Assembly (NCBI GenBank): GCA_945898015.1
Contig: CAMDGM010000010.1
Span: 1 to 64,000, forward strand
DNA from: PVC group bacterium
GTDB taxonomy: Bacteria > Verrucomicrobiota > Kiritimatiellia > CAIKKV01
Reading direction: 5' to 3'
DNA: 64,000 bases
The notes below the pieces were generated by a model. It was not told the origin of the DNA. It ran no database searches and worked only from the letters and a program-made list of their open reading frames with translations. Numbering within the stretch: position 1 is the stretch's first letter; each line of letters starts with the position of its first letter. The translations under genes were made by a program, and so were the position numbers. This document shows positions 44,412-61,959 of this stretch, piece by piece.

Positions 44412-44641
44412 GGAACGTGATCAAGATGTCAAAGAGAACGCATAAAATAGGCGATTGGGCGGCCAAAAGTCAAGCTTTGCCGGGCGAGCTTTGCGGGCGG
44501 GATGCGAAATACTGGGATAACTGACCGATGATGTCAAAGAATCATCGACGGACGCGGCGTTTTAAAGCGGATTCATTTTGGGACTGGCCCCTGATAACAA
44601 TAAAAAAACTCAAGAACATTATGGTTCTTGAGTTTTTTAAA
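44412..44641. other. Intergenic stretch between tRNA-Ser and the metal modules
   Basis: No gene is seen. The part next to the tRNA is unremarkable. Towards the right end it becomes AT-rich and contains the strong hairpin listed separately. It may mark the left edge of the accreted region, because the first module repeat starts directly after it. Confidence 0.6.
44603..44638. terminator. Strong bidirectional terminator hairpin
   Basis: AAAAAACTCAAGAAC (44603-44617) pairs perfectly over 15 bp with GTTCTTGAGTTTTTT (44624-44638) around a six-base loop. The A-run and T-run make it work in either direction. It lies downstream of cbiO (minus strand) and just outside the first module repeat. The arm GTTCTTGA also precedes the other two module junctions. 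Confidence 0.85.
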
Positions 44642-44772
44642 TGGTCGGGGCGACTGGCGCTCGTTTGAACCTGACCCCCGACTGATCGTGCCGATTGCTG
44701 CGATTGTTGACGGCCCAGTGCAACCTTTTGTCGCATCGGTCCAGCGTCTTGCTCGGCTTTGCGTCTGAATCA
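44639..44772. repeat. Module-boundary repeat, D-type copy 1
   Basis: It begins with TGGTCGGGGCG, identical to the reverse complement of the tRNA-Pro 3' end including CCA, and continues with ACTGGCGCTCGTTTGAACC. The first 33 bases (44639-44671) are identical to 48961-48993, and weaker similarity runs about 100 bases further, up to the cbiO stop. It bounds the nickel/cobalt module on the left. Confidence 0.85.
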
Positions 44773-45513
44773 ATGCGGGTGCGCGTGGCGTAGGATGTGG
44801 GGACGCTCCAGGCCATGCGCCAGCATGAGATTCTCGTCAGAGAGAATCTCGACGGTGGGGCCTTGGGCAACTATGCGACCGGCGTCCATCACGAGAACGT
44901 GACGGCACACCTCCACGACCAGTTCCAGGTCGTGGGTGGCGATGATCTTGGTGTGCTCAAAGGACAGTAAGTGCTCGATCAATCGGCGGCGGGCGCGCGG
45001 ATCGAGATTGGATGACGGCTCGTCCATGACCAGAATGTCGGGCGACATGGCCAAGACGGTGGCGATGGCCACGGCCCGTTTCTCTCCCGCCGAAAGCCGG
45101 TATGGGGGCCGCTCGCGAAGGTGCGTCATCCCCACGCGCTCCAGCGCGGAAGCGACGCGGCTTTCAACCTGGTCCGGTGGCAGACCGGCATTCAACGGGC
45201 CGAAGGCGACGTCTTCTGCCACCGTCGGCATGAACAACTGGTCGTCGGGATCTTGAAAGACCATCCCGACTGCGCGACGCGCCAATGCGGCCGTCTCCCG
45301 AGTTACGATGGTGTCGCCGATCCGGACGTCGCTGCGCGTCGTTGAGAGGTATCCGTTGAGGTGAAGGAGGAGCGTCGACTTGCCAGCGCCGTTCCCGCCG
45401 ATCAGGGCAACCGCCCCGCCGTGCTCAATGCGAAAAGATACACCCCGCAACGCCTCCGTGCCATCCGGGTAGGCAAACGAGAGATCGCGGACCTCGACCA
45501 CATGATGGCTCAC
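44770..45513 (-). CDS. cbiO: Energy-coupling-factor transporter ATP-binding protein, Ni/Co type
   Basis: A 247-residue ABC ATPase. Walker A is GGNGAGKSTLLLHLNG, the Q-loop is FQDPDDQLFMP (typical of ECF ATPases), the signature is YRLSAGEKRAVAIA, Walker B is ILVMDEPSSNLDP and the switch His is in ATHDLEL. It energises metal uptake together with CbiQ and CbiM. The start is GTG at 45513, overlapping the cbiQ stop (GTGA). Nickel rather than cobalt is favoured by the nikR gene in the same module. Confidence 0.93.
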   Translation of the reverse strand: MSHHVVEVRDLSFAYPDGTEALRGVSFRIEHGGAVALIGGNGAGKSTLLLHLNGYLSTTRSDVRIGDTIVTRETAALARRAVGMVFQDPDDQLFMPTVAEDVAFGPLNAGLPPDQVESRVASALERVGMTHLRERPPYRLSAGEKRAVAIATVLAMSPDILVMDEPSSNLDPRARRRLIEHLLSFEHTKIIATHDLELVVEVCRHVLVMDAGRIVAQGPTVEILSDENLMLAHGLERPHILRHAHPH

Positions 45514-46313
45514 ATGGCACCCCCGGTCAGCAGGCGTCCGAACGCCTCCGCCAGATTCCACAGGCGGGCCGACACAAAGAAGAGAAGACAGCCCGCGACG
45601 AATATCGCATCCGACCACACGAACGAGGATGGACGCAGAACACGCACCTCGCCATCGAAGCCACGCGCAACCATGGCCCGATAGACGCGCTCGGCCCTGT
45701 CCATCGACCGGAGAAGGAGATGGCCAATCATTGAGCCATAGACTCGAAGACGCAGGGGACGACCGGACGACCGCATCTCCGCACTTCGTTTCATCTTGCC
45801 TGCCTGATCCGAGACCACAAAGAGGTAGCGATAGAGAAACAGCAATTGAACCACAAAGACGCGCGGGACTCCGAGCCGTTCCAGCGCCGCGCCCAAACGG
45901 TTCATGCCTGTGCAGGCTACAAGCGCAAGCGCAGCTCCGACAGTCAGGAAGAACCGGAACATGATCGAGCCGAACGACACCCATCCCCCCGAGATCGCAA
46001 CGGTGCCGATAGTCGTGACCGGTGTCCGGTCCAGCAGGGGATTGAAGATCCCGATGAACAGGGCGAATGGCGCGGCAATGAGTATCTTCCGTGCGAGGTA
46101 ACCCACCGGGATGCGGCCCAGCGAGATGAGGGCAATCGGATAGAGCAGAAACGGGGTCAGCGCGGAGACATCATGGCGTGGAAAGGACATCACGACGACG
46201 ATAAACGCGAGGGTGACGATGGCCTTGGCCCGCGCATCGAGCCGATGCGCGGGCGTGTCCATGCGCCCGAGTTCGTCCATGCGCCCAATTTCGATCCAAT
46301 CCGTTATCCCCAT
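45510..46313 (-). CDS. cbiQ: Energy-coupling-factor transporter transmembrane (T) component
   Basis: A 267-residue membrane protein with about five helices. The start region HRLDARAKAIVTLAFIVVV and the two coupling segments AEMRSSGRPL and YRAMVARGFDGEVR (Ala-Arg-Gly motifs) are diagnostic of CbiQ/EcfT, which links the ATPases to the substrate component. ATG 46313 is chosen with GGGAG four bases upstream; a TTG 15 bases earlier is possible. It lies 18 bases after cbiM. Confidence 0.92.
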   Translation of the reverse strand: MGITDWIEIGRMDELGRMDTPAHRLDARAKAIVTLAFIVVVMSFPRHDVSALTPFLLYPIALISLGRIPVGYLARKILIAAPFALFIGIFNPLLDRTPVTTIGTVAISGGWVSFGSIMFRFFLTVGAALALVACTGMNRLGAALERLGVPRVFVVQLLFLYRYLFVVSDQAGKMKRSAEMRSSGRPLRLRVYGSMIGHLLLRSMDRAERVYRAMVARGFDGEVRVLRPSSFVWSDAIFVAGCLLFFVSARLWNLAEAFGRLLTGGAM

Positions 46314-46331
46314 AACACTCCCGCCCAACCC

Positions 46332-47399
46332 TCAACCGTTTCCGCAAGTGCGCTGGATCGAGCGGGCCCTGAGCGCAATCCCGATCAGGCATGCCAAAGC
46401 CAGTGTCATCAATCCGCCGACGATTCCCGCCACGGACGTTCCTGCGTTGACCGCCGGCCAAGGCTCCGGTTCGGGTGCGGCGGCATGTTCAGCAGGCGTG
46501 GCGGTTTCTGGTGCGGCCTCGCCGGACTTGAATCCGTAGTCGGGCAGGAATGCAGTCCTTTCCTGGACCTCCGCCAGACTCTTGTGGATACCGTCTCCGG
46601 GGCTTTCGAGTTCCTCTTTGCCGCTCACCTTGGCCATGGACCATTCCAGGCCGTCCGGGTGCGTGGACGCGAACCAACTTGCCACGCCACCCATGATGAC
46701 AGCGGCGATTGCCAGTCCAATCAAGACTGGCCGCAGACTTACAGACGCCTCAGACGCCGGTGCCGTCTGCAACGCCTCCGGGCGCGCCCTCGCCACGAAC
46801 GAGACTACGGCGGCTGTTGCCAATCCCTCGACTACGCCTATCGCCAGATGTATTGGCAACATCATGAGAACGAAGGTTCCGAAGGGCAATTCCGAGATGC
46901 CGGACGCCTTGGTTTCGAGCACGACGCTGAACGCACCCAGTTGCAGCCCCACAACGGCGGCGATGATCGCGCCAACCCAGGCGCGCGAAGTGCCGTATTG
47001 ACCCTTAACAAAGGCCCTGTAGATGAGGGGATACGCAACGAACGCCGGAAAGAAGCCCAGGTTGAAAATGTTACAGCCCAGCGCCAACAGTCCGCCATCC
47101 GCGAAGAAGAACGCCTGCACGGTCAATACCGAGGCCATAACCAGGAAGGCCGCATAGGGCCCGAGCAGAGCAGTCAGGATCAGCCCGCCGCCAAGATGTC
47201 CACTCGATCCGGTTCCCGGAATCGAAAAGTTGATCATTTGCGCGGCGAAGATGAACGCGCCAAGAACGCCCATCATGGGAACGAGATTGTCTCGGATGGA
47301 TGTCTTGACCTTGTTCGCGCAATAGGCAATCAGCCCGCCCGAGATCGCCCACATCGTCCCGCCCACGGCGGGGGAAATCAACGCATCTGCCATGTGCAT
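46332..47399 (-). CDS. cbiM: Ni/Co ECF substrate-binding component, CbiM with fused PDGLE (CbiN-like) domain
   Basis: A 355-residue protein. The N terminus MHMADALISPAVGG carries the Met-His start whose amino group and His2 coordinate the metal in CbiM/NikM; further conserved segments are GSSGHLGGGLILTALLGPY and the six-helix S core to about residue 220. The C-terminal PDGLE domain (about 235-340, HPDGLEWSMAKVSG) is the NikN/CbiN-type part. This fused MN form is typical of nickel systems (NikMN). It starts 12 bases after the beta-barrel gene. Confidence 0.93.
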   Translation of the reverse strand: MHMADALISPAVGGTMWAISGGLIAYCANKVKTSIRDNLVPMMGVLGAFIFAAQMINFSIPGTGSSGHLGGGLILTALLGPYAAFLVMASVLTVQAFFFADGGLLALGCNIFNLGFFPAFVAYPLIYRAFVKGQYGTSRAWVGAIIAAVVGLQLGAFSVVLETKASGISELPFGTFVLMMLPIHLAIGVVEGLATAAVVSFVARARPEALQTAPASEASVSLRPVLIGLAIAAVIMGGVASWFASTHPDGLEWSMAKVSGKEELESPGDGIHKSLAEVQERTAFLPDYGFKSGEAAPETATPAEHAAAPEPEPWPAVNAGTSVAGIVGGLMTLALACLIGIALRARSIQRTCGNG

Positions 47400-47411
47400 C
47401 TTCTGTTCCTC

Positions 47412-48191
47412 CTACTTGTTCTCTTTGCTTGTGAATCCAAATGCCCACGTGAGCCCGGCCGTCGCCGTGAAGTCCGGCGCGTCGCCGGATATCTTCGATC
47501 CCCCGGCAATGTCCAACGTCAGGCTCTCTATGGGATTCCATCGAAAGCCTGTGTTGTACTGAACAATGGTGTCGGCCTCACTCGACATCTCCTGTTCAGC
47601 AAACACCTCGCCGACCCACTGTACCGCGTCAAGAATCTGGTAGTCGGCGGCCATTCCGTAATGCATGACGTCGTCATCGGGTCCGCCGATCCATGAGTAG
47701 CCCACGTTGAGGTGGATGCCCGCCTTCTCACCAATGGATCGCGATGCCACCCACGTCAGATCGTAGTCAGTCTTGCCGCTGCCAAGTTCCTTGTCATCGT
47801 CTGCTGTCGGAAACTTGACGGACGGCACGATGGCGTGACGCGCTCCGAGCGGGCAGGACTCCAGGAACTGCCACTTTGCACCCAGCGTCAGATCGCCAAT
47901 GCCATGTTCCCGCGTGCACTCCGCTCCGCCGTCCTCCAAACGCTCCGTCCGTTCCTCGAACTGACCGCCGAATCCGACGCCGATCTCCACGCTGCGAATC
48001 ACCCCATACGTCAAACCGAACGGGAAGTCCCAGTGTTTGCAGTCGGAATCGTGCTCGTAGGCGGCTCCAGCCTCGAACTCAAACTGACCGACATCCGCCG
48101 GATCTGCATCGTCAATCGCCAGTGGGCGACCGGCGAACGCCGATCCGGCCACGCAAAGCACACCTGCCAGCATCCATCCGACCTTCTTCAC
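47412..48191 (-). CDS. Outer-membrane beta-barrel protein of the nickel module
   Basis: A 259-residue protein with a signal peptide ending SAFA and alternating amphipathic strands ending in an aromatic C-terminal region (LTWAFGF). It resembles the MetA-pathway/transporter-like outer-membrane barrels. As first gene of the transport operon, directly before cbiM, it may let nickel or a nickel chelate cross the outer membrane. No metal-binding residue cluster proves this. Confidence 0.75.
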   Translation of the reverse strand: MKKVGWMLAGVLCVAGSAFAGRPLAIDDADPADVGQFEFEAGAAYEHDSDCKHWDFPFGLTYGVIRSVEIGVGFGGQFEERTERLEDGGAECTREHGIGDLTLGAKWQFLESCPLGARHAIVPSVKFPTADDDKELGSGKTDYDLTWVASRSIGEKAGIHLNVGYSWIGGPDDDVMHYGMAADYQILDAVQWVGEVFAEQEMSSEADTIVQYNTGFRWNPIESLTLDIAGGSKISGDAPDFTATAGLTWAFGFTSKENK

Positions 48192-48240
48192 TCGTCTCGC
48201 TCCTTTCCTTAGTCTGACTACTATCGACCACTCTGCCGTC

Positions 48241-48267
48241 GTAATACCATCCTGAGAATCGTGTTAC
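48241..48267. promoter_or_regulatory. Candidate NikR operator upstream of the nickel transport operon
   Basis: GTAATAC (48241-48247), 13 bases, then GTGTTAC (48261-48267). It lies about 50 bases upstream of the beta-barrel gene start. The 7-N13-7 layout recurs in front of nikR. From memory, a Geobacter NikR was reported to use GTGTTAC half-sites spaced by 13 or 14 bases, which matches the right half exactly. Confidence 0.6.
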
Positions 48268-48294
48268 TCCAGGGCCAAAAAAAAGACCGCCGGA

Positions 48295-48711
48295 CTACTG
48301 CACCTCCTTGCCTGTAGTCGTCATCATCAGGGATACGTGTTTCAGACCCTTCAGAGACTTCAGCTTCTTCACCAACTGTTCCACATCTGCCGCCTTGCCC
48401 TTGACGATGATCGATTCCAGACAATTGTCATGATCAAGGTGCGCATGCTGGGCCGCAACCACTATGCGTTCAAAATCGTGTTGCGCGTCCACCAGTTCGC
48501 TGGCGAGGGTTCTCTCATGATGGTCATAGACTATGACGATGGCTCCGGCCACTTCTTTGCCTGACTGCCATTCCTTCTGCACGAGGGACTGGCGAATCAT
48601 GGATTGGATCGCCTCGGAGCGTGTGGGATGGCCTTCGCCCTTCCACATGCCGTCAAAATGCTTCAGTAGATCGCCCCCAAGCGATACGCTGAATCTCACG
48701 GCTCCACTCAT
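48295..48711 (-). CDS. nikR: Nickel-responsive regulator NikR
   Basis: A 138-residue ribbon-helix-helix/ACT regulator. The N-terminal RHH is VRFSVSLGGDLLKHFD and HPTRSEAIQSMIRQSL. The metal domain contains YDHHERTL and QHAHLDHDNCLESIIVKG, which supply the His/His/His/Cys nickel site of NikR. ATG 48711 is preceded by GGAGG. It probably represses the downstream nickel uptake operon and itself when nickel is sufficient. Confidence 0.94.
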   Translation of the reverse strand: MSGAVRFSVSLGGDLLKHFDGMWKGEGHPTRSEAIQSMIRQSLVQKEWQSGKEVAGAIVIVYDHHERTLASELVDAQHDFERIVVAAQHAHLDHDNCLESIIVKGKAADVEQLVKKLKSLKGLKHVSLMMTTTGKEVQ

Positions 48712-48731
48712 AATCAAAACCTCCATCGAGA

Positions 48732-48758
48732 GTATTACGAACAGGAAAAGCGTATTAC
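48732..48758. promoter_or_regulatory. Candidate NikR operator upstream of nikR
   Basis: GTATTAC (48732-48738), 13 bases, then GTATTAC again (48752-48758), a direct repeat of 20-bp period located 20-50 bases before the nikR start. Spacing is the same as at 48241-48267, which supports autoregulation by NikR. Confidence 0.6.
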
Positions 48759-48839
48759 TATCACTCGCCGACTGCTTGCGCAACATCAAAGTTGCAGACA
48801 ATTACAGGGCCGCTCTGAATCGAATCGCTGCGAGGGCGC

Positions 48840-48963
48840 GGTTCGCAAGTCCCATCGCCTCTCCATCCGGTTTGAACCGTACCTGTCGTCGCTTGCGGTG
48901 CAAGTGTCTGAGAATCAAGAGGAAAACGGCTGGTATTCTTGCCGAACGGCCGTTCTTGAAAAA
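48840..48963. repeat. Module-boundary repeat, U-type copy 1
   Basis: The first 23 bases (48840-48862) are identical to 55387-55409, and the last part, including the perfect palindrome GAACGGCCGTTC (48944-48955), is identical to 55490-55511. The middle is similar but diverged. It ends at the TGGTCGGGGCG core and is followed directly by D-type copy 2. No gene is supported in this stretch upstream of nikR. Confidence 0.85.
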
Positions 48964-49100
48964 TGGTCGGGGCGACTGGCGCTCGTTTGAACCGTACCCG
49001 CTACTGATCGCGCCTATCGTGACCGTTTTCGACGGCCCGACGCTGCCGTTCGTTGCCACGGCCGAGCGCCTTGTGCGGCGTTGCGCCTGCCTGAATCCGC
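48964..49100. repeat. Module-boundary repeat, D-type copy 2
   Basis: It starts with TGGTCGGGGCG (48964-48974) and is homologous to 44642-44772 over about 130 bases. It separates the nickel and zinc modules. The segment TTTGAACC mimics the T-loop region of a tRNA in reverse complement, so the repeat may derive from an old attachment site. Confidence 0.82.
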
Positions 49101-49176
49101 CACCCGCCGGGCAGATTCATTCCAGACAGGCCCACAAGCACTTGCAATTACAGAGGGCATAGGTCATATTTCCCGG

Positions 49177-49596
49177 GTGTTTACTGACATAAAAAGACTG
49201 AGCAGCGCACTCCTGCTGACTCTCTTTCTGTTTGGCGTGATCGCGTATCCCGCCATTCACAGGGTGAGTTCCGGGGGCGTGACGTCGCAGACCTGTGCAT
49301 GCTCCGAGCAGACGCCCAGGCTTCCTTCTTCGCACTGCAACCCGCTCGCGCAGGGCGTCGCCGACACGGAAAAGCCCTGTTCCGGTGACACCCACAACCG
49401 CCATAACCCGCCGGCTCCGCACGATGCCGGCCACTGTTCGATCTGCCAACTCGCACAAACCCCGATGAGCGTTTCGGCACCGGCGTTCCTGCCAGTGGCG
49501 ACCGACATCGTGATAGAGTGTGCCTTGCTTCCAAGCCGCGCTCCAACGGTTCGCACAGCTTGCATTCTTCCGTTCTCATGCGGTCCTCCCTCCTGA
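49177..49596 (+). CDS. Small His/Cys-rich protein, DUF2946-like
   Basis: About 139 residues. A membrane or signal segment (LSSALLLTLFLFGVIAYPA) is followed by a Cys/His-rich exported part: TCACSEQTP, SSHCNPL, and HDAGHCSICQLAQTP, the last resembling the DUF2946 signature. It could bind zinc or copper in the periplasm. The start is uncertain: GTG 49177 just precedes the hydrophobic segment, but no ribosome binding site is evident and the frame is open back to 49081. First gene of the zinc module. Confidence 0.6.
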   Translation: MFTDIKRLSSALLLTLFLFGVIAYPAIHRVSSGGVTSQTCACSEQTPRLPSSHCNPLAQGVADTEKPCSGDTHNRHNPPAPHDAGHCSICQLAQTPMSVSAPAFLPVATDIVIECALLPSRAPTVRTACILPFSCGPPS

Positions 49597-49754
49597 GCAT
49601 TCCAACTGGTTTCCCGAAATAGTCTCGCGGGGATGCGCTACATCCTGACGTGGGCCATATGCCAGAGGTTTCCTCGGCGTCCCCATTATCGGCGCGGCAA
49701 TCACAGCCTCTGAACGCATTTCAAATCAACGTGAATGCTTGGAAAGGAACAAGA

Positions 49755-50663
49755 ATGAAAGCACATACCACAAGAAAGAAAGCACTCTACGCGGCCTTGA
49801 TGGGCCTCGCGATGCTCACATGCGCCAACCGGGCGCTTTCGCAGACGGCCGATTCTGCCGCCAAGCCGGCAGAAAAAGCCACGGTGTCTGAGTCTCTCCT
49901 GGCGATCGAGCATGCCAAGCTGAATACTGCGGACGCCTCGCCGGTAGATCCCGGGCATTACGAAGTCGAGATAGGCTGCTCCTGGACACAGGCCAAACGC
50001 GCATGGGATGGTGACGGCGCTGCCCATAGCCGCGGCTTGGCCCGTGAACAGGCAGTCGGGCCGACCCTGACCGTCGGGATCATGGAGAATGTTGATGTCA
50101 GCATCGGGCTGGACTATCTCTGGCTGCGTGATGACGACAACGCGGCTCCGACCACAGGCGAAGGATTCGGCGACTTTAGTTTCGGCGGGCGTTATCGCTT
50201 CTTCACCAGTGGAAAATACAGGATCGAGGCCGCCTGGATCAGCGGCTTCACCGCACCGACCGGCAATCATGGAAATGACGATGAGTTGGGCGCCAGTCAG
50301 GAGTTCTGGAGCTGGGACAACTCCCTGGTGGTGAGCAAGGACTGGGAACACTGGACCATGAACGCGGAACTTGGCTGGTCGCTGCCTTTCGGTGAGAAGC
50401 GTGACGACGATCGCGGCACGCTGATTGCCAACCTCGCCGCCGGGTATCAGATCCTTGAATGGCTGCAGCCGGAGGTCGAGTTGAACTACAGCCGTGAATA
50501 CGCCAACGGCGAAGCGGATGAAAGCGCCTTGGCCGTGACGGCAGGCTTGGTGATGCCGATCAACGACTGTCTGCGCGTCAATCTGGGAGTACAGCAGGCA
50601 GTCTGGGGTGAGAACGCAGACAAGGCCACGGTCGCCATGTTGGCAGTGAAATTGGGTTTCTAA
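49755..50663 (+). CDS. Outer-membrane beta-barrel protein of the zinc module
   Basis: A 302-residue protein with a signal peptide (to about residue 30, NRALSQ). The rest is a beta-barrel pattern (YEVEIGCSWTQAK, GFGDFSFGGRYRFFTSGKY, WTMNAELGWSLPFGE) ending in a C-terminal Phe (MLAVKLGF), the usual barrel-insertion signal. It resembles MetA-pathway type barrels. It lies 22 bases before znuA, so is likely the outer-membrane channel for the metal. GGAAAGGAAC precedes ATG 49755. Confidence 0.8.
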   Translation: MKAHTTRKKALYAALMGLAMLTCANRALSQTADSAAKPAEKATVSESLLAIEHAKLNTADASPVDPGHYEVEIGCSWTQAKRAWDGDGAAHSRGLAREQAVGPTLTVGIMENVDVSIGLDYLWLRDDDNAAPTTGEGFGDFSFGGRYRFFTSGKYRIEAAWISGFTAPTGNHGNDDELGASQEFWSWDNSLVVSKDWEHWTMNAELGWSLPFGEKRDDDRGTLIANLAAGYQILEWLQPEVELNYSREYANGEADESALAVTAGLVMPINDCLRVNLGVQQAVWGENADKATVAMLAVKLGF

Positions 50664-50685
50664 CGAACACAAGGAGAACACGATT

Positions 50686-51573
50686 ATGACCACTCGAATG
50701 AACCGACCGGTATTGATTGTCATCGCTTCTATAATCTGCGCGGCTGCAAACCTATACGCTGCGGCAGAGGAAAAGGTCCGGATCCTGACATCCTTCTACC
50801 CCATGTATATCGCCACGCTGAACGTGGCGAAGGGCGTGCCGGGTGTCGAAGTCCTGAACCTCACCAAACCGCAGACCGGCTGTCTGCATGACTACCAGAT
50901 GACGCCCGATGATATGGCGCATCTGTCAGGAGCGAATATCTTCGTTGTCAACGGTGCGGGGATGGAGGCGTTTCTCGACAAGGTCGTCGCGCAACTGCCA
51001 GCGCTGAAGATCGTCAAAGCCAGCGATGGCATTGAACTGATCAAAGGCGAGGGCGAGGAAGGGGACAATCCGCACGTCTGGGTCAGTGTGTCGCTCCACA
51101 TTAAACAGGTAGAGAATATCGTGGCGCAGTTGGCGAAGGCGGACACTGCGCACGCCGATCAGTACAAGAAGAACGGTGCGGAATATGTCGCACGCCTGGA
51201 CCAACTGCGGAAGAAGATGCACGAGGGGTTGAAGGATGTTCAGACCCGCGACATCATCACCTTCCACGAGGCATTTCCGTATTTCGCCAGGGAGTTCAAC
51301 CTCAAGATCGCGGCCGTGATCGAGCGTGAACCCGGTTCCGAGCCAAGCGCCAAGGAACTGGCCGAAACGATTGAAATCGTCAAGAAAGCCAAGGTCAAGG
51401 CTCTGTTCGCCGAACCTCAGTACCCGACCAAGGCGGCGGAGGCTATTGCCAGGGAAAGCGGAGCCAAGTTGTACACGTTGGATCCATCCGTTACGGGCCC
51501 CATGACGGCTGACGCCTATTTTGCGATCATGGAGAAGAATCTCGCCGAATTGCGAAAGGCGTTGAATCCGTAA
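50686..51573 (+). CDS. znuA: Zinc/manganese ABC transporter substrate-binding protein, ZnuA-like
   Basis: A 295-residue cluster A-I metal-binding protein with a signal peptide (to about residue 26). Conserved ligands are His in GCLHDYQMTPDD, His in DNPHVWVSVSLH, His in IITFHEAFPYFAREF, and an acidic residue in ALFAEPQYPTKA. The His-rich loop of many ZnuA proteins is missing; an acidic stretch (GEGEEGD) takes its place. Zinc is favoured by the linked permease and TIGR03943 genes, but manganese is possible. The stop overlaps the ATPase start by one base. Confidence 0.9.
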   Translation: MTTRMNRPVLIVIASIICAAANLYAAAEEKVRILTSFYPMYIATLNVAKGVPGVEVLNLTKPQTGCLHDYQMTPDDMAHLSGANIFVVNGAGMEAFLDKVVAQLPALKIVKASDGIELIKGEGEEGDNPHVWVSVSLHIKQVENIVAQLAKADTAHADQYKKNGAEYVARLDQLRKKMHEGLKDVQTRDIITFHEAFPYFAREFNLKIAAVIEREPGSEPSAKELAETIEIVKKAKVKALFAEPQYPTKAAEAIARESGAKLYTLDPSVTGPMTADAYFAIMEKNLAELRKALNP

Positions 51574-52433
51574 TGACTGAAGAACCGACCAGAACACCGG
51601 ACAAGGTGCAACATGCCGCCCGTCACTCTACGGACGCACGGCCGTGTTGCACCCGTCTGGTCGGGTTGGGTGTTCAACTGGGGACCACAACAGTTCTGGA
51701 GAACGTGAATCTCCATATTCACTGCGGTGAGTTCACCGCCATTATCGGCCCGAACGGAGCAGGCAAGACTACCCTTCTGAGGGCCTTGATAGGAGAAGTT
51801 CGCCACACCGGACAGTTGGTCTTCGTGCCGTCCACCGGAACGTCAGAGCCGCGAAGGCCGCGTGTCGGCTATGTGCCGCAGCGCATGGAAATAGACAAAA
51901 CCACCCCGTTGACGGTGCTCGATCTGTTTGCCGGAGTGCAGACACGCCGGCCGGTATGGCTTGGGCACACGCGCCGGATGCGCGATGCCGCCGGGATGAC
52001 ATTAGAACGTGTGCGGGGCGCGGACCTGCTCGACAAGCGAATTGGGCAACTGTCGTGCGGCCAACTCCAACGGGTTCTTCTGGCGCTCGCTTTGTCGCCT
52101 GTTCCAGAACTCCTGTTGCTCGACGAACCGCTGGCCGGCATGGACCATCGCGGAACGCTATTGTTCTACCAGATTGTGTCGGAACTGCGCCTCGAAATGG
52201 ACCTTTCCATTTTGCTCGTGTCGCATGACTTGGCCGCGGCGGCAGGCGTTGCGGATCGGTTGGTATTCCTGAATCGCACGATTCTCGCCGATGGTCTGCC
52301 GACTCAAGTCCTTCAGTCCCCACTTGTCCGCGACACCTTCGGCCTGGACTTGGCGGGCATTCCACCCATGCCAACAGCATCGCTCTCCTCCATGCCTGCC
52401 CGCTGCTGTGTGCCGGAGGGCAAGACACAATGA
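51573..52433 (+). CDS. znuC: Zinc ABC transporter ATP-binding protein, ZnuC-like
   Basis: A 286-residue ABC ATPase with an extra N-terminal stretch of about 20 residues. Walker A is IGPNGAGKTTLLRAL near residue 50, the Q-loop is in GYVPQRMEI, the signature is LSCGQLQRVLLALAL (LSCGQ instead of LSGGQ), Walker B is LLLLDEPLAGMD and the switch is VSHDLAAA. Both ends are coupled: TAATG with znuA and ATGA with znuB. Confidence 0.92.
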   Translation: MTEEPTRTPDKVQHAARHSTDARPCCTRLVGLGVQLGTTTVLENVNLHIHCGEFTAIIGPNGAGKTTLLRALIGEVRHTGQLVFVPSTGTSEPRRPRVGYVPQRMEIDKTTPLTVLDLFAGVQTRRPVWLGHTRRMRDAAGMTLERVRGADLLDKRIGQLSCGQLQRVLLALALSPVPELLLLDEPLAGMDHRGTLLFYQIVSELRLEMDLSILLVSHDLAAAAGVADRLVFLNRTILADGLPTQVLQSPLVRDTFGLDLAGIPPMPTASLSSMPARCCVPEGKTQ

Positions 52434-53257
52434 ACCTGTGGCACTGCCTCATAGACGTTCTGCCCTTCCAGTGGGCGCACTATGCTTTTATGCAGAATGC
52501 CCTGCTGGCCATCCTCCTGGTGACGCCCCTGTTCGCGCTTCTTGGATGCCTGGTGATTAACAACCAAATGGCCTTCTTCTCGGATGCCATCGGGCATGCC
52601 AGTCTCACCGGCATTGCCATCGGCGTCCTGCTGAGTTTGGCGGACCCGACCTGGTCCATGCTCGGCTTCGCCTTGTTCCTGGCGGTCGCCATTTCCGTAT
52701 TGCGACGTTACAGCGCCGCCTCGACCGATACGCTCATCGGCCTTGTCATGGCGTTCGCCATGGCTCTCGGCGTCGTACTCCTTTCGCGAGGCGGTGGATT
52801 CGCAAAGTACTCCCGTTTCCTGATCGGCGATATTCTGACGATTACGCCGCGCGAAATCGTACGGCTCGCGGTCGCGCTTGTTGTCGTGGTCGTTATCTGG
52901 TGTTGGGCATTCAACCGCTTCCTGATCACATTCCTGAACCGTTCACTGGCCCGAAGCCGAGGGGTGCATGTGTGGGCCGTAGAAACCGGCTTTGCCGCGA
53001 TTGTCGCCGCCGTTGTCGCCATCAGCATTCCGTGGGTCGGTCTGCTGGTCATTAACTCCCTGCTGATTATCCCGGCAGCGACCGCCCGGAACGTGGCAAG
53101 AACCACGGCGCAATATGTGATTCTCGCGGTTGTATTCTCCTGCGCGACGGGCGTTCTAGGATTGGTGGGGTCGTTCTATTGGGGTACGGCTACCGGCGGC
53201 ACAATCGTATTGGCCGCCATGGCGCTGTATGTGGTGTCGCTGTTTTTCCGTCGTTGA
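52430..53257 (+). CDS. znuB: Zinc ABC transporter permease, ZnuB-like
   Basis: A 275-residue membrane protein of the ABC-3 family with about eight helices. Typical segments are FMQNALLAILLVTPLFALLG, MAFFSDAIGHASLTGIAIG (the conserved region facing the ATPase), FLIGDILTI and LLVINSLLIIPAATARNVAR. It moves the metal from ZnuA across the inner membrane. Confidence 0.93.
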   Translation: MNLWHCLIDVLPFQWAHYAFMQNALLAILLVTPLFALLGCLVINNQMAFFSDAIGHASLTGIAIGVLLSLADPTWSMLGFALFLAVAISVLRRYSAASTDTLIGLVMAFAMALGVVLLSRGGGFAKYSRFLIGDILTITPREIVRLAVALVVVVVIWCWAFNRFLITFLNRSLARSRGVHVWAVETGFAAIVAAVVAISIPWVGLLVINSLLIIPAATARNVARTTAQYVILAVVFSCATGVLGLVGSFYWGTATGGTIVLAAMALYVVSLFFRR

Positions 53258-53325
53258 ACGGGTGAGTTTCAAGAATGAAGACCAGAGAAAGAAACGTCTG
53301 GAAGCCGAAATGACAATGCCCCCCC

Positions 53326-54558
53326 ATGATACAACCGCATAGCCATACAAATCCGTCGCCCGGAATCATCCCCGAGACGTCAAAGGGAACAACGGATCAC
53401 ACTCCGATTGTCCGCCATAATTCGTGGGGCGACGACCCCATTCTTCCAGAGACGCCCGCTCCGCCTGTGGGCAAAGCATTGCTCTTTATGCTGGCTTTCT
53501 TCGCTCTGACTATTCCACCGCTGTTTGGCGATCATCCCGGTGTCCGAGCGTTCTCGCTGGCATTTGTGAGCATCGTTCTGGAAGCCTTGCCGTTCATGCT
53601 GATCGGTTCGTGCGTCGGTGGACTGATCGAAGTCTTCATCAGTTGCGACAGACTCACGGCGCGCCTGCCCCGTCGGCCTTGGGCTGTGACTTGTCTGGCG
53701 GCGGCTCTGGGACTTGTGTTTCCTGTATGCGAGTGTGCCGTTGTGCCCGTGGTTCGGCGCCTAACCCGCAAGGGGCTGCCGCTCTCCGCCGCTGTGGCAT
53801 ATCTTCTTGGCGGACCTATCGTAAATCCCATTGTCGGCGCTTCAACGCTTCTCGCCTATCGGTTCAATTGGACCGTGGTGTGCATACGTCTACTGGCAGG
53901 TTATGCCATCGCCGTTACGGTGGGCCTCACTATGGATCGTCTGTTCAGGTATCGTCCGGCGCTACTGGAATCGGGTGATGCCCAGAAGGGCGGTTGCACT
54001 TGCGGTCACGATCATGATGGCACGTCAGCAGAAGACCACCACAACGACGAAGACGAGCTCCATGCCCATGAGGAGCATGATCACCAGTCCGATGCACACA
54101 CATGTTGCAGTCACGAGGCTCATACGACTTCTTCCGTGTTGTCTGGTCGTCTCCTTGCGGCGTTGCGGCATGCCACGGATGATTTCCTTGCCGTTGCGCA
54201 CTATCTTGTTATCGGGGCGGCTATCGCGGCCTTGTCGCAAACCCTTGTCGAGCGTCGACTCTTCCTAAGTTTCGCCGCCTTTCCCATTCTGCCTGCCGTC
54301 TCAATGATGGTGCTGGCGATCCTGCTCAACCTCTGCTCAGAGGCGGATGCTTTCATCGCGGCCTCATTCCGGGGACTTCTTCCCCTGCCGGCGCACATGG
54401 CCTTTCTGCTGACGGGCCCCATGTTCGATCTGAAATTGTTGCTGATGTATCGGACATTGTTCACGCGAAGGGCAATTTTGATCCTTTCGTGCCTGATTCT
54501 CCTTTCAGTATTTGCAGTAACTGTTGTTCTGGAAGTCTTGGGGATACCACTACGATGA
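53326..54558 (+). CDS. DUF318/SO_0444-type permease with His/Cys-rich loop
   Basis: A 410-residue membrane protein. Two halves of about four helices each flank a cytoplasmic loop (about 220-270) rich in His, Cys and Asp: CTCGHDHDG, HHNDEDELHAHEEHDHQ and THTCCSHEAH are nearby short runs. The first half has PVCECAVVPVVRRLTRKG and GGPIVNPIVGAST, the CEC motif of SO_0444-type Cu/Zn efflux proteins; the second half has ILLNLCSEADAFIAAS. It likely moves zinc or another soft metal; direction is uncertain. Translationally coupled to the next gene. Confidence 0.88.
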   Translation: MIQPHSHTNPSPGIIPETSKGTTDHTPIVRHNSWGDDPILPETPAPPVGKALLFMLAFFALTIPPLFGDHPGVRAFSLAFVSIVLEALPFMLIGSCVGGLIEVFISCDRLTARLPRRPWAVTCLAAALGLVFPVCECAVVPVVRRLTRKGLPLSAAVAYLLGGPIVNPIVGASTLLAYRFNWTVVCIRLLAGYAIAVTVGLTMDRLFRYRPALLESGDAQKGGCTCGHDHDGTSAEDHHNDEDELHAHEEHDHQSDAHTCCSHEAHTTSSVLSGRLLAALRHATDDFLAVAHYLVIGAAIAALSQTLVERRLFLSFAAFPILPAVSMMVLAILLNLCSEADAFIAASFRGLLPLPAHMAFLLTGPMFDLKLLLMYRTLFTRRAILILSCLILLSVFAVTVVLEVLGIPLR

Positions 54559-55289
54559 ACAACCTCAACCGATTTCTCTCGCGCTACTGGTGTCCCTTCT
54601 TATTGGTCGCTTGGTTCTGGTCGGTTTCCGGATTGCTGGTGGATCGAACGTATACGGTTTTCCTACGCCCGGAGTTGGGTCTACTGCTTGTGGTGGCGCT
54701 AGTCGTGATGATGGGTTTCTTATTCGCTGAAATGCGCCAATGGGGACACCCGCGGGTGTTCGGGCTGGACGGGGCGTCGCGCATGTTGATTCTGCTCGCC
54801 CCTTTGGTCTACATGTCCGTCGCACGCGGGGCATCGCTGGATTCCCGCGCTTTCCAGAACAGATGGACCGAGATGAGCGGGACAAATGCCGTTTTGAGGG
54901 CAGGAAACGAGATGGGCGCTATGAATTCCGCGGCCTCATCCAACACAGCGGTGGAAGCGACAATGCTGGACTTGACGTACAGTCCTGCTCGCTTCAAGAA
55001 CCAGCAGATCGCCGTTATCGGAATGATTCACCGCGATTCCAAGATCAAGGAGAGGTTCGGATCCGACGCCTGCCTTCTATTCCGTTTTGTCGTGAGTTGT
55101 TGTGCCGCAGATGCCAGACCCGTTGCCATATTGACTGGAGGGGATGTTCCGGCAGATTGGGCCGACGACACATGGATTCGTGCGGAAGGGCGTTTTACCC
55201 TTCGTGATGACAAAGGCCAGCCGGTGCCAACTCTGGAAATCAGCACGGCAACCCGGATTCCGAAACCAAGGCAACCGTATTTGTACTGA
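54555..55289 (+). CDS. TIGR03943 family membrane protein
   Basis: A 244-residue protein with two or three N-terminal helices (about 10-105) and a periplasmic C-terminal domain (about 140-240) with RFKNQQIAVIGMIHRD, LFRFVVSCCAADARPVAIL and WIRAEGRF. The CCAADARP block is the family mark. Members are usually paired with a DUF318 permease, as here, where the start overlaps the permease stop (ATGA). Function unknown; a metal-transport partner is likely. Confidence 0.87.
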   Translation: MNNLNRFLSRYWCPFLLVAWFWSVSGLLVDRTYTVFLRPELGLLLVVALVVMMGFLFAEMRQWGHPRVFGLDGASRMLILLAPLVYMSVARGASLDSRAFQNRWTEMSGTNAVLRAGNEMGAMNSAASSNTAVEATMLDLTYSPARFKNQQIAVIGMIHRDSKIKERFGSDACLLFRFVVSCCAADARPVAILTGGDVPADWADDTWIRAEGRFTLRDDKGQPVPTLEISTATRIPKPRQPYLY

Positions 55290-55386
55290 ACCGTGACGCC
55301 GCGGTCACGAAAGCCGCCGGCCTGCCGTTCCGGCGGCCAGGGACGCATGCTTCCGCGCCAGCAACTATATCGCTTTACGATGAGAT

Positions 55387-55511
55387 GGTTCGCAAGTCCC
55401 ATCGCCTCTACGTCAGGGTTGAACCGTACCCATCGGTCATTTGCAGCGGAAGTGCCTGCGAATCAAGGAGAAGACGGACGGTCTTCTTACCGAACGGCCG
55501 TTCTTGAAAAA
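55387..55511. repeat. Module-boundary repeat, U-type copy 2
   Basis: It is homologous to 48840-48963, with 23 identical bases at the start and the palindrome GAACGGCCGTTC at 55492-55503. It ends exactly where the left attachment repeat of the integrated element begins. No gene is seen between the TIGR03943 stop and here. Confidence 0.85.
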
Positions 55512-55561
55512 TGGTCGGGGCGGAGGGATTTGAACCCTCGACCTCTTGCACCCCAAGCAAA
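55512..55561. repeat. Left attachment repeat (partial tRNA-Pro)
   Basis: Fifty bases identical to 62010-62059, containing the tRNA-Pro 3' half in reverse complement (CCA end, acceptor strand, T arm and the anticodon-loop side). After it the sequence diverges, so this copy is not a functional tRNA. Confidence 0.95.
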
Positions 55562-55617
55562 AGAGTGAACCATATTTTCTATAGATATTTGACTTCTTTT
55601 CTGACTTTTTATGTCAG

Positions 55618-55638
55618 GTGTGTCCTATTGTGTGTCCT
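55618..55638. repeat. Candidate integrase arm site, left
   Basis: A 21-bp sequence made of two GTGTGTCCT units separated by ATT, identical to 61873-61893. It lies 57 bp inside the left attachment repeat, the place expected for arm-type sites bound by the integrase N-terminal domain. Confidence 0.65.
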
Positions 55639-55712
55639 TTTTTGCTTGCCTTTCCTGCCTATCCGTTTCAATATGTTGCCAAGACTATCAATTTAACCGG
55701 AAAGGGAAAGCA

Positions 55713-57320
55713 ATGGGCGTTATCCTGAAAAAACAACGTGACGGAACAATCCGGCCTCACTGGTATGGCAAATACGCCGATGGGAAAAAATGCCGCGTGA
55801 TAAATACCGGCGTGACGGTCCGGGGAACCCCGCCCCCAAATACCGATGCCGCCTTTACCCGATCCAGAGAAGAGGCCGAAAAAGCCCTTGCCCGGCACGT
55901 CGAGGATGCCCGGCGGAAAGGCCGCGCCGATCACTTGACGGAAAGACTTATCGAATCCAAGACCGGGCGCAAGGTTGAATATGTCCGGCTTTCTGACCTG
56001 GCCGCCCGCTGGCGGGATCTTCCCCGCGAAACCGCGCCGGGCAAAGACTGGCTGGCCTGGTGCGATTCGATTTTCAACCGCTTTGCCGCCGCATTACCGA
56101 AAGTAACCTATCTGCATGAAGTCACGCCCGCGCAAGCCGGGGCATATCGGAACCGCCTTGCCGCCGACTATTCGCGCCGGACCGCACACGGGGCCGCGCA
56201 AATGCTTAAAGGCGCATTCGCCCGCCTGTTACCTATCGGGGCCGCGAATCCGTTTGCCGGGGCAATCGCCCGGCCCGGCCCGGATGATGACGCGGGCACG
56301 GTACACCGCCGCCCGTTCACCCCCGAGGAACTGCAAGCCCTTTTCACCGCCGGCCGCCGTGACGCCTTTCTTTTCCCGCTTGTTGTTTGCGCCGCCTGCA
56401 CCGGAATGCGCAGAGGCGATGTATGCCGCTTGCGCTGGTCAAGCGTTGACCTTGCCGCCGGGGTGCTGGCCGTCAAAACGCACAAGACCGGGGCCGCCGT
56501 CGAAATCCCGATCTTTCCACCGTTGCGGGAAGTGCTGACAATCGCCCGCCGCGCCGCTTCCCCGTATGTCTGGCCGCTTGCCGCCCGGATGCTGGCCGAT
56601 AACCCGGACGGCTTGACCTATCGTTTCAAGAAACTTGTGGCGGAAACCTTCCCCACCTCGGAAGCCACGCAAAAGGCCCTACAAGCCGCACCGCCCGCCC
56701 CCCTTGCCGAATCATTGCCCGCCGTTGAAAAGGCCGTGTGTGAAAGCCTGGCCGGCCCGCGCCGCGATAGGGTGCTTGCCACCTTGCGCCGATACGCCGC
56801 CGGGGAATCGGTCCGGGCAATCGCCCGGCCGTCAATCGAAGGAGCCCCCGATCACCGGGGACAAGTGAGTATGGACTTGCACGACGCGGAACGGCTTTCG
56901 GGAATATCCTTTTTGCCCCACCCATCGGCCGCCCCCAGCGTGAAAGACGAAATTGCCGACATAACCCGGACCGCCCGAACCGCCCGAGAAAAAGGCCAGC
57001 GTTTTGCTTCGATTCTGGACTGGCACGCCTTGCGCGTTACATGGGTAACAATAGCCTTATCCGCCGGGGTGCCGATCGAAACCGCCCGCCTTGTGACCGG
57101 GCATGAATCCGTCAACGTGGTTTTGCGTCATTACTTCAAACCCGGCCGAGAAGCGTTGCGAACCGTGTTGCTTGCAAAGATGCCCGCCGTTTTGACCGGT
57201 GGGGCCGCCCCCGCGCCGGACCCGGCCGCCGAACTGGCCGAACTGGCCGGGAAGCTGGCCGCCCGAACCGCAACGAAAGAGGACAAGGCCCGTTTCCGCA
57301 AGCTGGCCGCGAAAGTGTAA
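55713..57320 (+). CDS. int: Tyrosine-type site-specific integrase
   Basis: A 535-residue recombinase. The N-terminal part (about 1-80, LKKQRDGTIRPHWYGKYADG) is an arm-binding-like domain, and a SAM-like core-binding domain follows (about 95-190). The catalytic domain has ARG box I in CTGMRRGDVCRLRWSSVDL, then HxxR in DWHALRVTWVTIAL, then TGHESVNVVLRHYF with the active-site Tyr. Between box I and HxxR there is an unusually long insertion of roughly 130 residues with Pro/Ala-rich and charged parts. ATG 55713 follows GGAAAGGGAAAG. It should catalyse integration into the tRNA-Pro 3' end. Confidence 0.93.
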   Translation: MGVILKKQRDGTIRPHWYGKYADGKKCRVINTGVTVRGTPPPNTDAAFTRSREEAEKALARHVEDARRKGRADHLTERLIESKTGRKVEYVRLSDLAARWRDLPRETAPGKDWLAWCDSIFNRFAAALPKVTYLHEVTPAQAGAYRNRLAADYSRRTAHGAAQMLKGAFARLLPIGAANPFAGAIARPGPDDDAGTVHRRPFTPEELQALFTAGRRDAFLFPLVVCAACTGMRRGDVCRLRWSSVDLAAGVLAVKTHKTGAAVEIPIFPPLREVLTIARRAASPYVWPLAARMLADNPDGLTYRFKKLVAETFPTSEATQKALQAAPPAPLAESLPAVEKAVCESLAGPRRDRVLATLRRYAAGESVRAIARPSIEGAPDHRGQVSMDLHDAERLSGISFLPHPSAAPSVKDEIADITRTARTAREKGQRFASILDWHALRVTWVTIALSAGVPIETARLVTGHESVNVVLRHYFKPGREALRTVLLAKMPAVLTGGAAPAPDPAAELAELAGKLAARTATKEDKARFRKLAAKV

Positions 57321-57338
57321 CCCGAAGAAAGGAACACC

Positions 57339-57824
57339 ATGAACAAACCACTCGTCCGCGAAAAGATCACCGGTTTTAGGAACATCGAAAAGCAACACCG
57401 CGTCTCGTTGCACAAACTTTTGAATGCCGTCGAATTATGCGATGAACCGGCCTTTGTTCAAGCCGCCAAAAGTCTGCTTTGTTACTATCAGGACACGCTT
57501 GAATGCGGAGACACTGCCGAACGTGCCCGCCGTGTTTTTTGGATACAGGGCGAATGGAACAAAACGCCGCCGGATCATATTGAAGAGGCAATAAAACGAA
57601 CGCTCTACACGCTCTTATGCAACTTGGTATCCACGAATGCGCCGGAATTATCAACGGCTCTCGTTTTGCGGTCGTCTACGGCCGCAAGCAAGGGGAGAAT
57701 CCCAGCCCCCCCGCTTCCTGGCCGGATCGGCGGAAAACAAAAGGCCTTTCTTGTTTCCTTGCTGGATCGATACGCCTTTAACGCGAAAACGCGACAAATC
57801 GAGGAGCCGGGAAAAAACAGTTGA
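57339..57824 (+). CDS. Hypothetical element protein
   Basis: A 161-residue protein starting 18 bases after the integrase stop. The first 105 residues look helical and plausible (ITGFRNIEKQHRVSLHKLLN, AFVQAAKSLLCYYQDTL). The last 55 are Pro/Ser/Lys-rich and could be a real tail or a frame-shifted end, since a second frame from 57617 is also open for 54 codons. I recognise no family. Confidence 0.55.
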   Translation: MNKPLVREKITGFRNIEKQHRVSLHKLLNAVELCDEPAFVQAAKSLLCYYQDTLECGDTAERARRVFWIQGEWNKTPPDHIEEAIKRTLYTLLCNLVSTNAPELSTALVLRSSTAASKGRIPAPPLPGRIGGKQKAFLVSLLDRYAFNAKTRQIEEPGKNS

Positions 57825-58066
57825 CGCGGTGTTTCCCTTTCGATATATTACTGTTTGGATATTTGATAATTTAAAAGGCTGCTACCACCGGAAGTAAAAA
57901 CGCACTCCATTCGCTGGGGTTTTAATCCTGCACGTCAAGGCGCGTTTTACCGGAGCACCGTCTAGGAACAAAGAAGGCAAGCCGAATCGGCGGCCATCTC
58001 AACCGCAAATGCGGATGGGGTGGCTTTTTTATTTGCCAGGCCCATCCGCGAGATGGAGACCCGGCC
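57825..58066. other. AT-rich leader with possible non-coding RNA before the Xre operon
   Basis: The left part is AT-rich (CGATATATTACTG, TTTGATAATTTAAAAGG) and could hold a promoter. About 100 structured bases follow, ending in the terminator at 57993-58030 just before the regulator gene. A transcript begun here would end before the operon unless it reads through. No open frame of note. Confidence 0.45.
57993..58030 (+). terminator. Rho-independent terminator or attenuator upstream of the Xre gene
   Basis: GCCATCTCA..CCGC pairs with GCGG..TGGGGTGGC around AAAT, followed by six T residues (58025-58030). The stem has a few mismatches or G-T pairs but is long and GC-rich. Confidence 0.75.
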
Positions 58067-58315
58067 ATGCCCGCAACGAAACGACGAAACCCATACGCCC
58101 CGAAACTCTTCAACCGCCGCCTTGCCCGTGTCCTAACGGCTTGCGGCCTTCCCGATCGGGCGATTGCCGCCCGCGCCGGGATACGCCCCGCAACGCTTTC
58201 CCTTATCCTGCACGGCCAGAATAAGCCGCGCCTTACCACCGCCCGCGCTATTGCGGCCGCCCTGGATACCACGCCCGACATGATCGGACTTGGAAAGAAA
58301 AGGGGCGCACAATGA
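58067..58315 (+). CDS. Xre-family helix-turn-helix regulator
   Basis: An 82-residue protein with a lambda-repressor-like HTH: FNRRLARVLTACGLPDRAIA, AGIRPATLSLILHGQNKP and TARAIAAALDTTPDMIG. The binding helix is ATLSLILHG. GGAGA precedes the ATG. The next gene overlaps by four bases (ATGA). A master repressor or immunity regulator of the element is likely. Confidence 0.85.
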   Translation: MPATKRRNPYAPKLFNRRLARVLTACGLPDRAIAARAGIRPATLSLILHGQNKPRLTTARAIAAALDTTPDMIGLGKKRGAQ

Positions 58316-58641
58316 CAACCGAGCAACGTTTTGCCGCCATGCTTTCCGCCCCGGCCGCCGTCCTGGCCCGCGTCGATGCCGCGCTATCCGGGCAAGCGGA
58401 GGCCGCCCCTACCCCGCCCCCTGCCCGCTTGTTGACCCATTCGGAGGCCGCCCGTCGTTTGTCCGTTTCCCGCGTAACCGCCTGGCGAATGGAAAAAGAC
58501 GGCGTGCTTCCCGTGTGCGAAATCCGCCCCGGTGTTTACCGCGTGCCCGAAAGCGCGATTGCCGCTCTGGCCGGATCGGCCCGGACCCGCCCCGCCCGCG
58601 TTGACAGAAACAAAGGCAAGGAGGCTGGCCATGCGCAATAA
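58312..58641 (+). CDS. Excisionase/AlpA-like helix-turn-helix protein
   Basis: A 109-residue protein. The central part LLTHSEAARRLSVSRVTAWR, then MEKDGVLPVCEIRPGVYRVP, is the winged HTH_17/AlpA type found in excisionases and AlpA activators. The N-terminal 38 residues are an Ala/Pro-rich extension. It could direct excision or activate the replication operon. Coupled to both neighbours. Confidence 0.82.
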   Translation: MTTEQRFAAMLSAPAAVLARVDAALSGQAEAAPTPPPARLLTHSEAARRLSVSRVTAWRMEKDGVLPVCEIRPGVYRVPESAIAALAGSARTRPARVDRNKGKEAGHAQ

Positions 58642-58792
58642 ATCCCCGCGCCGTGTCGAGGTTCACCCGGACCCGTTGCCGAATATCATAGGCCGATATT
58701 TTACCGGCAAGGCAACGCCACTAGACCGCCGGACAAAGATCATCCGTCAACTTGAAGCCCGCCGTCGCAACCGGAAAGGGGGCAAGGTATGA
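58631..58792 (+). CDS. Small basic protein
   Basis: A 53-residue, Arg/Lys-rich protein starting MRNKSPRRVEVHPDPLPN and ending RRNRKGGKV. It overlaps the preceding gene by 11 bases and the replication gene start by four (ATGA). The tight coupling supports expression. No family recognised; nucleic-acid binding is plausible from charge. Confidence 0.6.
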   Translation: MRNKSPRRVEVHPDPLPNIIGRYFTGKATPLDRRTKIIRQLEARRRNRKGGKV

Positions 58793-60390: not shown

Positions 60391-60454
60391 TGCACCTGGC
60401 CGGGTGCAAGGTGCAAAAGGTGCACCCCTAAAGGGGTGGTGCACTTGTTGCACC
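60348..60454. repeat. Iteron-like array, candidate replication origin
   Basis: Nine copies of GGTGCA or its complement lie in 107 bp. GGTGCAA starts at 60348, 60355, 60373, 60403 and 60410; GGTGCACC is at 60419; inverted or partial copies are at 60391, 60438 and 60448. The array begins within the last codons of the replication gene and runs into the intergenic stretch. Such arrays next to a RepA-type gene are typical iterons. Confidence 0.7.
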
Positions 60455-60638
60455 TGCATGCCCCCTGCTGGCTACTGCAACCAGAGGCAAAGGGAGGGGC
60501 CGCCCCAGAGGCAGAGGGGCACCCCCCGCCCGGATGGGTCCCCTTTGAAGACTTTCCCGCATCAGGTGCGAAAGCCATGCCTTCCCCGAATTCACCATAC
60601 CCGTGCCCCCGTTACAGTTGACAAAGAAAGGTTGAAAC
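60455..60638. other. GC-rich non-coding stretch after the iteron-like array
   Basis: No convincing gene. It contains G/C-rich runs with short inverted repeats (GGGAGGGGCCGCCCC) and, close to the next start, TTGACA at 60617. Together with the array it may form the origin and the promoter region of the Nu1-like gene. Confidence 0.5.
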
Positions 60639-61178: not shown

Positions 61179-61306
61179 AGAGAAAACGAAAACGCAATGC
61201 CCGCCTAATCGGAATAGATGCCACGTCGCATAATATCTGTTATGTCAACTAAAGAAAGTTGTCTTTTTGTCTTGCCTATCCCGAAGGGATAGGGGATCAT
61301 TGCACC

Positions 61307-61684: not shown

Positions 61685-61872
61685 CACCGGCCCGACACCC
61701 TCCGCAATCCCCGGCAAGCCGCCGCCTTGCCTATCCTGACAAGCGCCACGGCATTCTGACCCCCTGGCCTATGTCTGGACACCACTGGCACCCGAAACGC
61801 CTTTAAACGGTATTCTGACGCCCACCACCGAATCCCGCCCGGAATGATCATCTTTTTTCGCTTGTGTGTTCT

Positions 61873-61893
61873 GTGTGTCCTATTGTGTGTCCT
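61873..61893. repeat. Candidate integrase arm site, right
   Basis: The 21-bp sequence is identical to 55618-55638 and lies in the same orientation, 117 bp inside the right attachment repeat. A third, partial GTGTGTT unit is just to the left. Confidence 0.65.
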
Positions 61894-61959
61894 ATCAGGC
61901 CCCCTATTTCGGAGCGTTTCCGGGCATTGCACGGAAAGAGCATTATAAGACTGAAAAGC

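Follow-up and report, generated by a model that had tools for sequence, protein, structure and literature searches.

Introduction

Tycheposons are modular islands that bring nutrient-acquisition genes to tRNA genes by means of tyrosine recombinases, and the staphylococcal cassette chromosome (SCC) family is moved by serine recombinases. Here we describe a tRNA-associated locus in an uncultured bacterium of the Planctomycetes-Verrucomicrobia-Chlamydiae (PVC) group (GenBank assembly GCA_945898015.1, contig CAMDGM010000010.1, positions 1 to 64,000; this stretch of 64,000 nucleotides is called the window). It holds a nickel unit (44642-48964) and a zinc unit (48964-55512), each beginning with a boundary sequence, D, and ending with another, U, beside a tRNA-Pro gene. 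The locus resembles tycheposons in its nutrient cargo at a tRNA and its modular build, and differs from them in that the ends of its units are of serine-integrase type.

Composites of SCC and pseudo-SCC units, such as the staphylococcal arginine catabolic mobile element (ACME)-SCCmec islands, consist of tandem units in which every junction bears an integration-site sequence; they include pseudo-SCC units, and metal genes are among the cargo (PMC5964201). The nickel and zinc units are likewise stacked in tandem with an attachment (att) core at each junction and ends from a serine-recombinase family. However, they are inserted at the 3' end of tRNA-Pro and not at the attB in orfX (rlmH), their parents are phage- or satellite-like, and the cargo found in such units comprises metal uptake, restriction-modification and toxin-antitoxin genes. 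Cis-mobilizable elements (CIMEs) keep both att sites, lack recombination genes and accrete in tandem, also at a tRNA-Lys 3' end (PMC7563491). The two units share with them the retention of both att ends without recombination genes; CIMEs derive from conjugative or mobilizable elements, whereas in the complete parent described below, L184, there are genes for a capsid and for replication, and we saw no conjugation gene among the ORFs scanned.

The large serine integrases (LSRs) of phages, of the Bxb1 type, also use a short common core (PMC9262239), which here is about 10-12 bp. According to the same review, mycobacteriophages with serine integrases do not use tRNA 3' ends; unlike them, the LSR family at this locus is found consistently at such ends. 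In the integration-dependent immunity of BPs-type phages, attP lies within the repressor gene, and integration by a tyrosine integrase removes a degradation tag from the repressor (PMC9262239). An attP within a gene, whose product changes at its C-terminus on integration, is common to BPs and to the family studied here, but in the latter the protein shortened, by a tail of about 37 residues, would be the serine integrase itself.

We propose that both units are cargo islands without an integrase and belong to an LSR element family that targets the 3' end of tRNA-Pro, a reading to which we give a probability of about 85%. It rests on the identity of U, on a complete parent whose reading frame is open across U-core-D, on the anatomy of the junctions and on other cargo found in the same frame, as read from the sequences compared.

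Results

Boundaries of the two units

There are exactly four copies of the 11-mer TGGTCGGGGCG in the window (44642, 48964, 55512 and 62010), all on the plus strand; 100 shuffles averaged 0.11 copies and gave 2 at most. Its reverse complement, CGCCCCGACCA, forms the final 11 bases of the tRNA-Pro(GGG) gene at 62086-62010 on the minus strand. The longest exact direct repeat between D1 and D2 is AAATGGTCGGGGCGACTGGCGCTCGTTTGAACC (33 bp), within a homology of about 139 nt at 75%; that between U1 and U2 is CCGAACGGCCGTTCTTGAAAAATGGTCGGGGCG (33 bp), with a further 23-bp identity farther out and a homology of about 135 nt at 84-88%. At the nickel and zinc junctions only the 11-bp core is common to the tRNA, and not the T-arm-side repeat of tyrosine-integrase tRNA islands. 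In the whole 3.29-Mb genome, D and U are confined to these junctions (three D/U places), with D solely at the left end and U solely at the right end of each cargo.

An earlier note on this DNA, made from its letters, had described the core at every junction, 33 identical and about 100 similar bases in D1 and D2, identities of 23 and 33 bases in U1 and U2, and nickel and zinc gene sets. The repeats were found as described, and domain matches identified the sets as CbiMQO/NikR and ZnuACB. The features are as follows.

44598-44643, no strand: terminator-like bidirectional inverted repeat, original post-tRNA-Pro sequence in our reading, now the far edge
44642-44652, plus: core J1, reverse complement of the tRNA-Pro 3' end (11-mer match)
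44642-44777, plus: D1, left arm of the nickel unit, translation GRGDWRSFEPDPRLIVPIAAIVDGPVQPFVASVQRLARLCV*
44770-45480, minus: CbiO-like ATP-binding cassette (ABC) ATPase
45510-46328, minus: CbiQ (PF02361)
46332-47399, minus: CbiM with PDGLE domain (PF01891 and PF13190)
47412-48191, minus: outer-membrane protein of the Phenol_MetA_deg family, nickel unit
48295-48711, minus: NikR regulator (PF08753), start codon inferred
48826-48963, plus: U1, remnant of a serine-integrase gene 3' end
48964-48974, plus: core J2 (11-mer match)
48964-49134, plus: D2, left arm of the zinc unit
49081-49596, plus: zinc module open reading frame (ORF) 1, with homologues in the zinc modules of genomes G083, G117 and G192
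49650-50663, plus: outer-membrane protein of the Phenol_MetA_deg family, zinc unit
50686-51573, plus: ZnuA (PF01297)
51573-52433, plus: ZnuC-like ABC ATPase
52430-53257, plus: ZnuB-like permease (ABC-3)
53326-54558, plus: ArsP_1 family permease
54489-55289, plus: DUF1980 C-terminal domain protein
55374-55511, plus: U2, remnant of a serine-integrase gene 3' end
55512-55561, plus: core J3 with 39 nt of tRNA-Pro, the left repeat of the tyrosine-integrase element
55611-57320, plus: tyrosine recombinase (PF00589; phrog_1) of a separate satellite-like element (55512-62009)
62010-62086, minus: intact tRNA-Pro(GGG); core J4 is 62010-62020

U and D as parts of a serine-integrase gene

Judged by alignment, U is the 3' end of an LSR gene and D is its in-frame continuation past the core. 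In genomes G200 and G065 a serine-integrase gene ends in the U that adjoins the tRNA, and the LSR of G065 (locus L031) has Resolvase, Recombinase and Zn-ribbon domains. Our survey covered 288 genomes, an even sample of the class; three encoded close LSR homologues (G200, G065 and G083), all three directly at tRNA-Pro. Relatives with 59-80% identity were present on 15 contigs of a viral database, and the gene ran into tRNA-Pro or a remnant of it in all eight whose flank was covered; in L170 it ends at a degenerate tRNA-Pro copy beside a tRNA-Pro. A profile made from the U of cargo units only, without LSR sequences, matched LSR 3' ends in 10 loci (E values of 2e-9 to 2.5e-3), and reversed controls gave zero matches.

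Most copies of D read GRGDWRSFEPYPQLIAPIVTVFDGPTLPF...RLVRLCA* in the LSR frame, and their differences by codon position in that frame were 0.41, 0.28 and 0.51 (column-shuffle p = 0.002). The protein profile of the D tail found L184 at 2.5e-5 and L185 at 8.5e-11, the best reversed control being 0.88. L185 has the order integrase-U-core-tRNA followed by another core-D. Between its integrase, the intact tRNA and the next core-D (L185:11481-12110) lie degenerate tRNA-Pro copies, arranged in tandem and sharing one spacer, which resemble decoy attachment sites.

It might be supposed that D and U are interspersed non-coding repeats, of the miniature inverted-repeat transposable element (MITE) or repetitive extragenic palindromic (REP) type, that landed near tRNAs independently of the modules. 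Relics with GIY-YIG genes and hairpins do occur beside several tRNA-Pro genes, as such repeats would suggest; but the alignment of U with integrase 3' ends and of D with the integrase frame, together with the constant placement of D at the left and U at the right of the cargo in their own genome, leave this idea with hardly any credibility.

Neither the D pattern nor the U-end pattern had an exact match in the viral contigs; four matches of an inner U pattern were judged chance-like. Against plasmids, tblastn of the U-D peptide gave chance-level matches only, and the J1 region matched mainly ABC transporters in the plasmid collection. Weak U-D matches in G019 and G267 sit in unrelated genes, and those in G091, G023 and G143 were core-only or too short. 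More distant serine integrases (about 26-33% identity) in other genomes of the class lie at tRNA-Ser, tRNA-Val and tRNA-Pro, with one near tRNA-Leu, and several read into the tRNA (L076, L077, L079, L080-L083 and L085). Serine integrases of this group may generally be directed at tRNA 3' ends.

A complete parent element

The 11-kb viral-database contig L184 has a core-D at 105 and an LSR-U-core-tRNA-Pro at 11082, with 10,977 bp between them. A core-D at one end and a U-core at the other is the arrangement common to the nickel unit, the zinc unit and L184. When the ends of L184 are joined, the LSR extends in frame from 499 to 533 amino acids and acquires a D-type tail. Since U is the integrase 3' end, D continues its frame and these ends join in frame, U-core-D is best read as an attP that lies within the integrase gene, at its 3' end.

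The genes of L184 encode an excisionase-like helix-turn-helix protein, a primase/helicase-like AAA protein, a protease-capsid fusion (5654-7486), a TnsA-like nuclease and type III restriction-modification; we saw no tail genes. Among the ORFs scanned there was no relaxase or conjugation family, only some of the parents being annotated. From this gene content L184 resembles a phage satellite, and it is possibly a capsid-forming satellite with defence cargo.

Assembly of the locus

Directly left of the J1 core stands a terminator-like repeat, of which a 55-nt stretch matches at 84% the sequence behind a tRNA-Pro(CGG) gene on contig C4 of the same genome. As the same terminator lies directly behind another tRNA-Pro, J1 is most simply read as the original tRNA end, displaced by units that entered between tRNA and terminator. 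J3 consists of the U2-core and 39 nt of tRNA-Pro, which shows that an intact tRNA formerly adjoined the zinc unit.

In the mechanism that we propose, D follows U in the circular element and the integrase reading frame spans U-core-D. The LSR would recombine this attP with the 3' end of tRNA-Pro; crossover in the core would rebuild the tRNA and join U to it, and the displaced tRNA terminus with its terminator would be moved out to the far (D) end. Once rebuilt, the tRNA could be used again, so that units would stack with the oldest, the nickel unit, outermost. Judging from position, the order of insertion would have been nickel, zinc and then the unrelated tyrosine-integrase satellite. The LSR would have acted in trans or been lost later, and the units may still be mobile.

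The satellite is bounded by a 50-bp tRNA-Pro repeat (55512-55561 and 62010-62059), a direct repeat into the tRNA as in tyrosine-integrase tRNA islands, and also encodes a terminase small subunit and a DnaB-like helicase. It is a separate insertion, unrelated to D and U, that later split the zinc unit from the tRNA. Its tyrosine integrase at 55611 uses the same tRNA-Pro with the same 11-bp core, and one could imagine that it inserted all three units. We consider this extremely unlikely, because its ends, with a repeat of 50 bp into the tRNA, are unlike D and U, U aligns with serine-integrase genes, and the U/D elements carry serine integrases instead.

The earlier note had proposed stepwise accretion, at one tRNA-Pro, of units that start with D and end with U, followed by an integrase element. 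The accretion is upheld by the J1 terminator and by loci of other genomes (see below), and the element lies after U2 as stated. Its ends are its own, it stems from a different, tyrosine-recombinase insertion, and nothing indicates that it placed the units; the serine-integrase nature of D and U had been missed.

D and U around other genes

After inspection, 12 credible D/U loci remained in 10 other genomes, including other families, and nine of them directly abut a tRNA-Pro with a CGG, TGG or GGG anticodon. In G083 the order is D, zinc module, U, core-D and restriction-modification genes; its zinc genes are largely in the order seen here, and the genes beyond the next core-D are of the Vsr/methylase type, named by eye from translations. 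G064 has a phd/doc-like pair, also named by eye, between D and U at tRNA-Pro. Nickel modules were present in 62 of the 288 genomes and zinc modules in six of the 288 in all; within the flanks read, no zinc module of another genome had D or U, except that of G083. As D/U frames hold other cargo and metal modules occur without D/U, frame and cargo are, on this comparison, separable. The gene sets found between D and U in relatives (zinc, restriction-modification and phd-doc), the absence of scattered copies in the own genome, and the finding that in the relatives examined the two modules are not fixed together without the repeats all agree with the modular scheme of the earlier note.

The similarity and adjacency of D1 and D2, and of U1 and U2, could be explained by local tandem duplication of a boundary or of an island whose cargo was then replaced. 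However, D2 is 81-85% identical to the D of G083, G064 and G097, which belong to other families, and only 68% to D1, which makes local duplication very unlikely; U1, moreover, is equally close to the U of G083 and to U2.

Several further loci were observed. A second set of CbiM, CbiQ and CbiO, 60-71% identical and lacking D/U, is present in the genome under study (L165, G000:C29:21273-22061). A core-D copy in G083 (L023, G083:C70:816-10172) is followed by hemL-, hemB-, hemC/D-, hemA/cysG- and sulfite/nitrite reductase-like genes, which may be either cargo or chromosomal. In Planctomycetota, neither L068 nor L071 has a tRNA that we could find beside its U-core-D or core-D; what comes next is a VOC-like gene and a transposase in L068 and a PIN-type toxin-antitoxin pair in L071, both named by eye. 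Small GIY-YIG-like genes and REP-like hairpins adjoin tRNA-Pro at L027, L028, L029, L034 and L023, often fused to D relics, and the right end of these loci differs from U. A 45-bp relic of a tRNA-Pro 3' half lies beside a GIY-YIG gene (L095, G000:C4:76730-76774), on the contig that also carries, 38 kb away, the intact tRNA-Pro(CGG); this is probably another att relic.

Origin of the integrase-less units

No LSR was detected in the nickel or zinc unit, nor a related one elsewhere in the genome, at the thresholds used; the units were therefore filed as integrase-less derivatives and not as complete members of the L184 family. Such units could be eroded integrase islands, which arrived with their own LSR and phage genes and kept only cargo and att ends after later deletions, a decay like that of CIMEs. 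This is the conservative version of our explanation, and we give it even odds. It agrees with the degenerate state of U as coding sequence (frame shifts or stops in U2 and in G083), with many smaller, truncated D relics at tRNA-Pro, and with the genome having no LSR. Independent random deletions would not be expected, however, to leave arms of similar reach. Across units that differ in cargo, the common part of U always extends 124-180 nt from the core, and that of D, among D1/D2-like units, mostly about 107-180 nt. This constancy argues for a defined non-autonomous unit over random erosion. As the sample is small and U is degenerate, CIME-like decay is kept as the main rival.

A more speculative proposal, possible but in our judgement rather doubtful, is that D-cargo-U is a non-autonomous vehicle in which arms of about 130-170 nt would carry varied cargo into tRNA-Pro through LSRs of resident phages or satellites acting in trans. 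In the parents, integration would replace about 37 residues at the C-terminus of the integrase by a few that the tRNA encodes, a built-in switch between the circular and the integrated state.

Some observations weigh against the units being islands of this LSR family. The U of cargo units is only about 41-58% identical to that of LSR elements over its length (about 85-96% in the last 20-30 nt), and no element was found with both an intact LSR and a U of exactly the cargo-unit subtype. The nickel modules of other genomes in the class are outside any D/U frame within the flanks read, and GC content and composition show no anomaly or sign of foreign origin here. The case is made from assembled sequence, the genomes being metagenome-assembled; neither a circular junction nor an empty site was seen directly, and in G020, of the same family, the two flanks are on different contigs.

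Discussion

The islands proposed here would account for the arrival of nickel and zinc operons and of defence genes at one chromosomal address in an uncultured PVC-group lineage. By analogy, the locus would work like pseudo-SCC composites or CIMEs, but the integrase family involved is one directed at tRNA 3' ends. Its serine integrases lie consistently at these ends, unlike those of mycobacteriophages according to the review cited above (PMC9262239). The end sequences D and U are recognisable and can be used to find more units, and the tail swap, if true, would be a testable switch in the state of the integrase.
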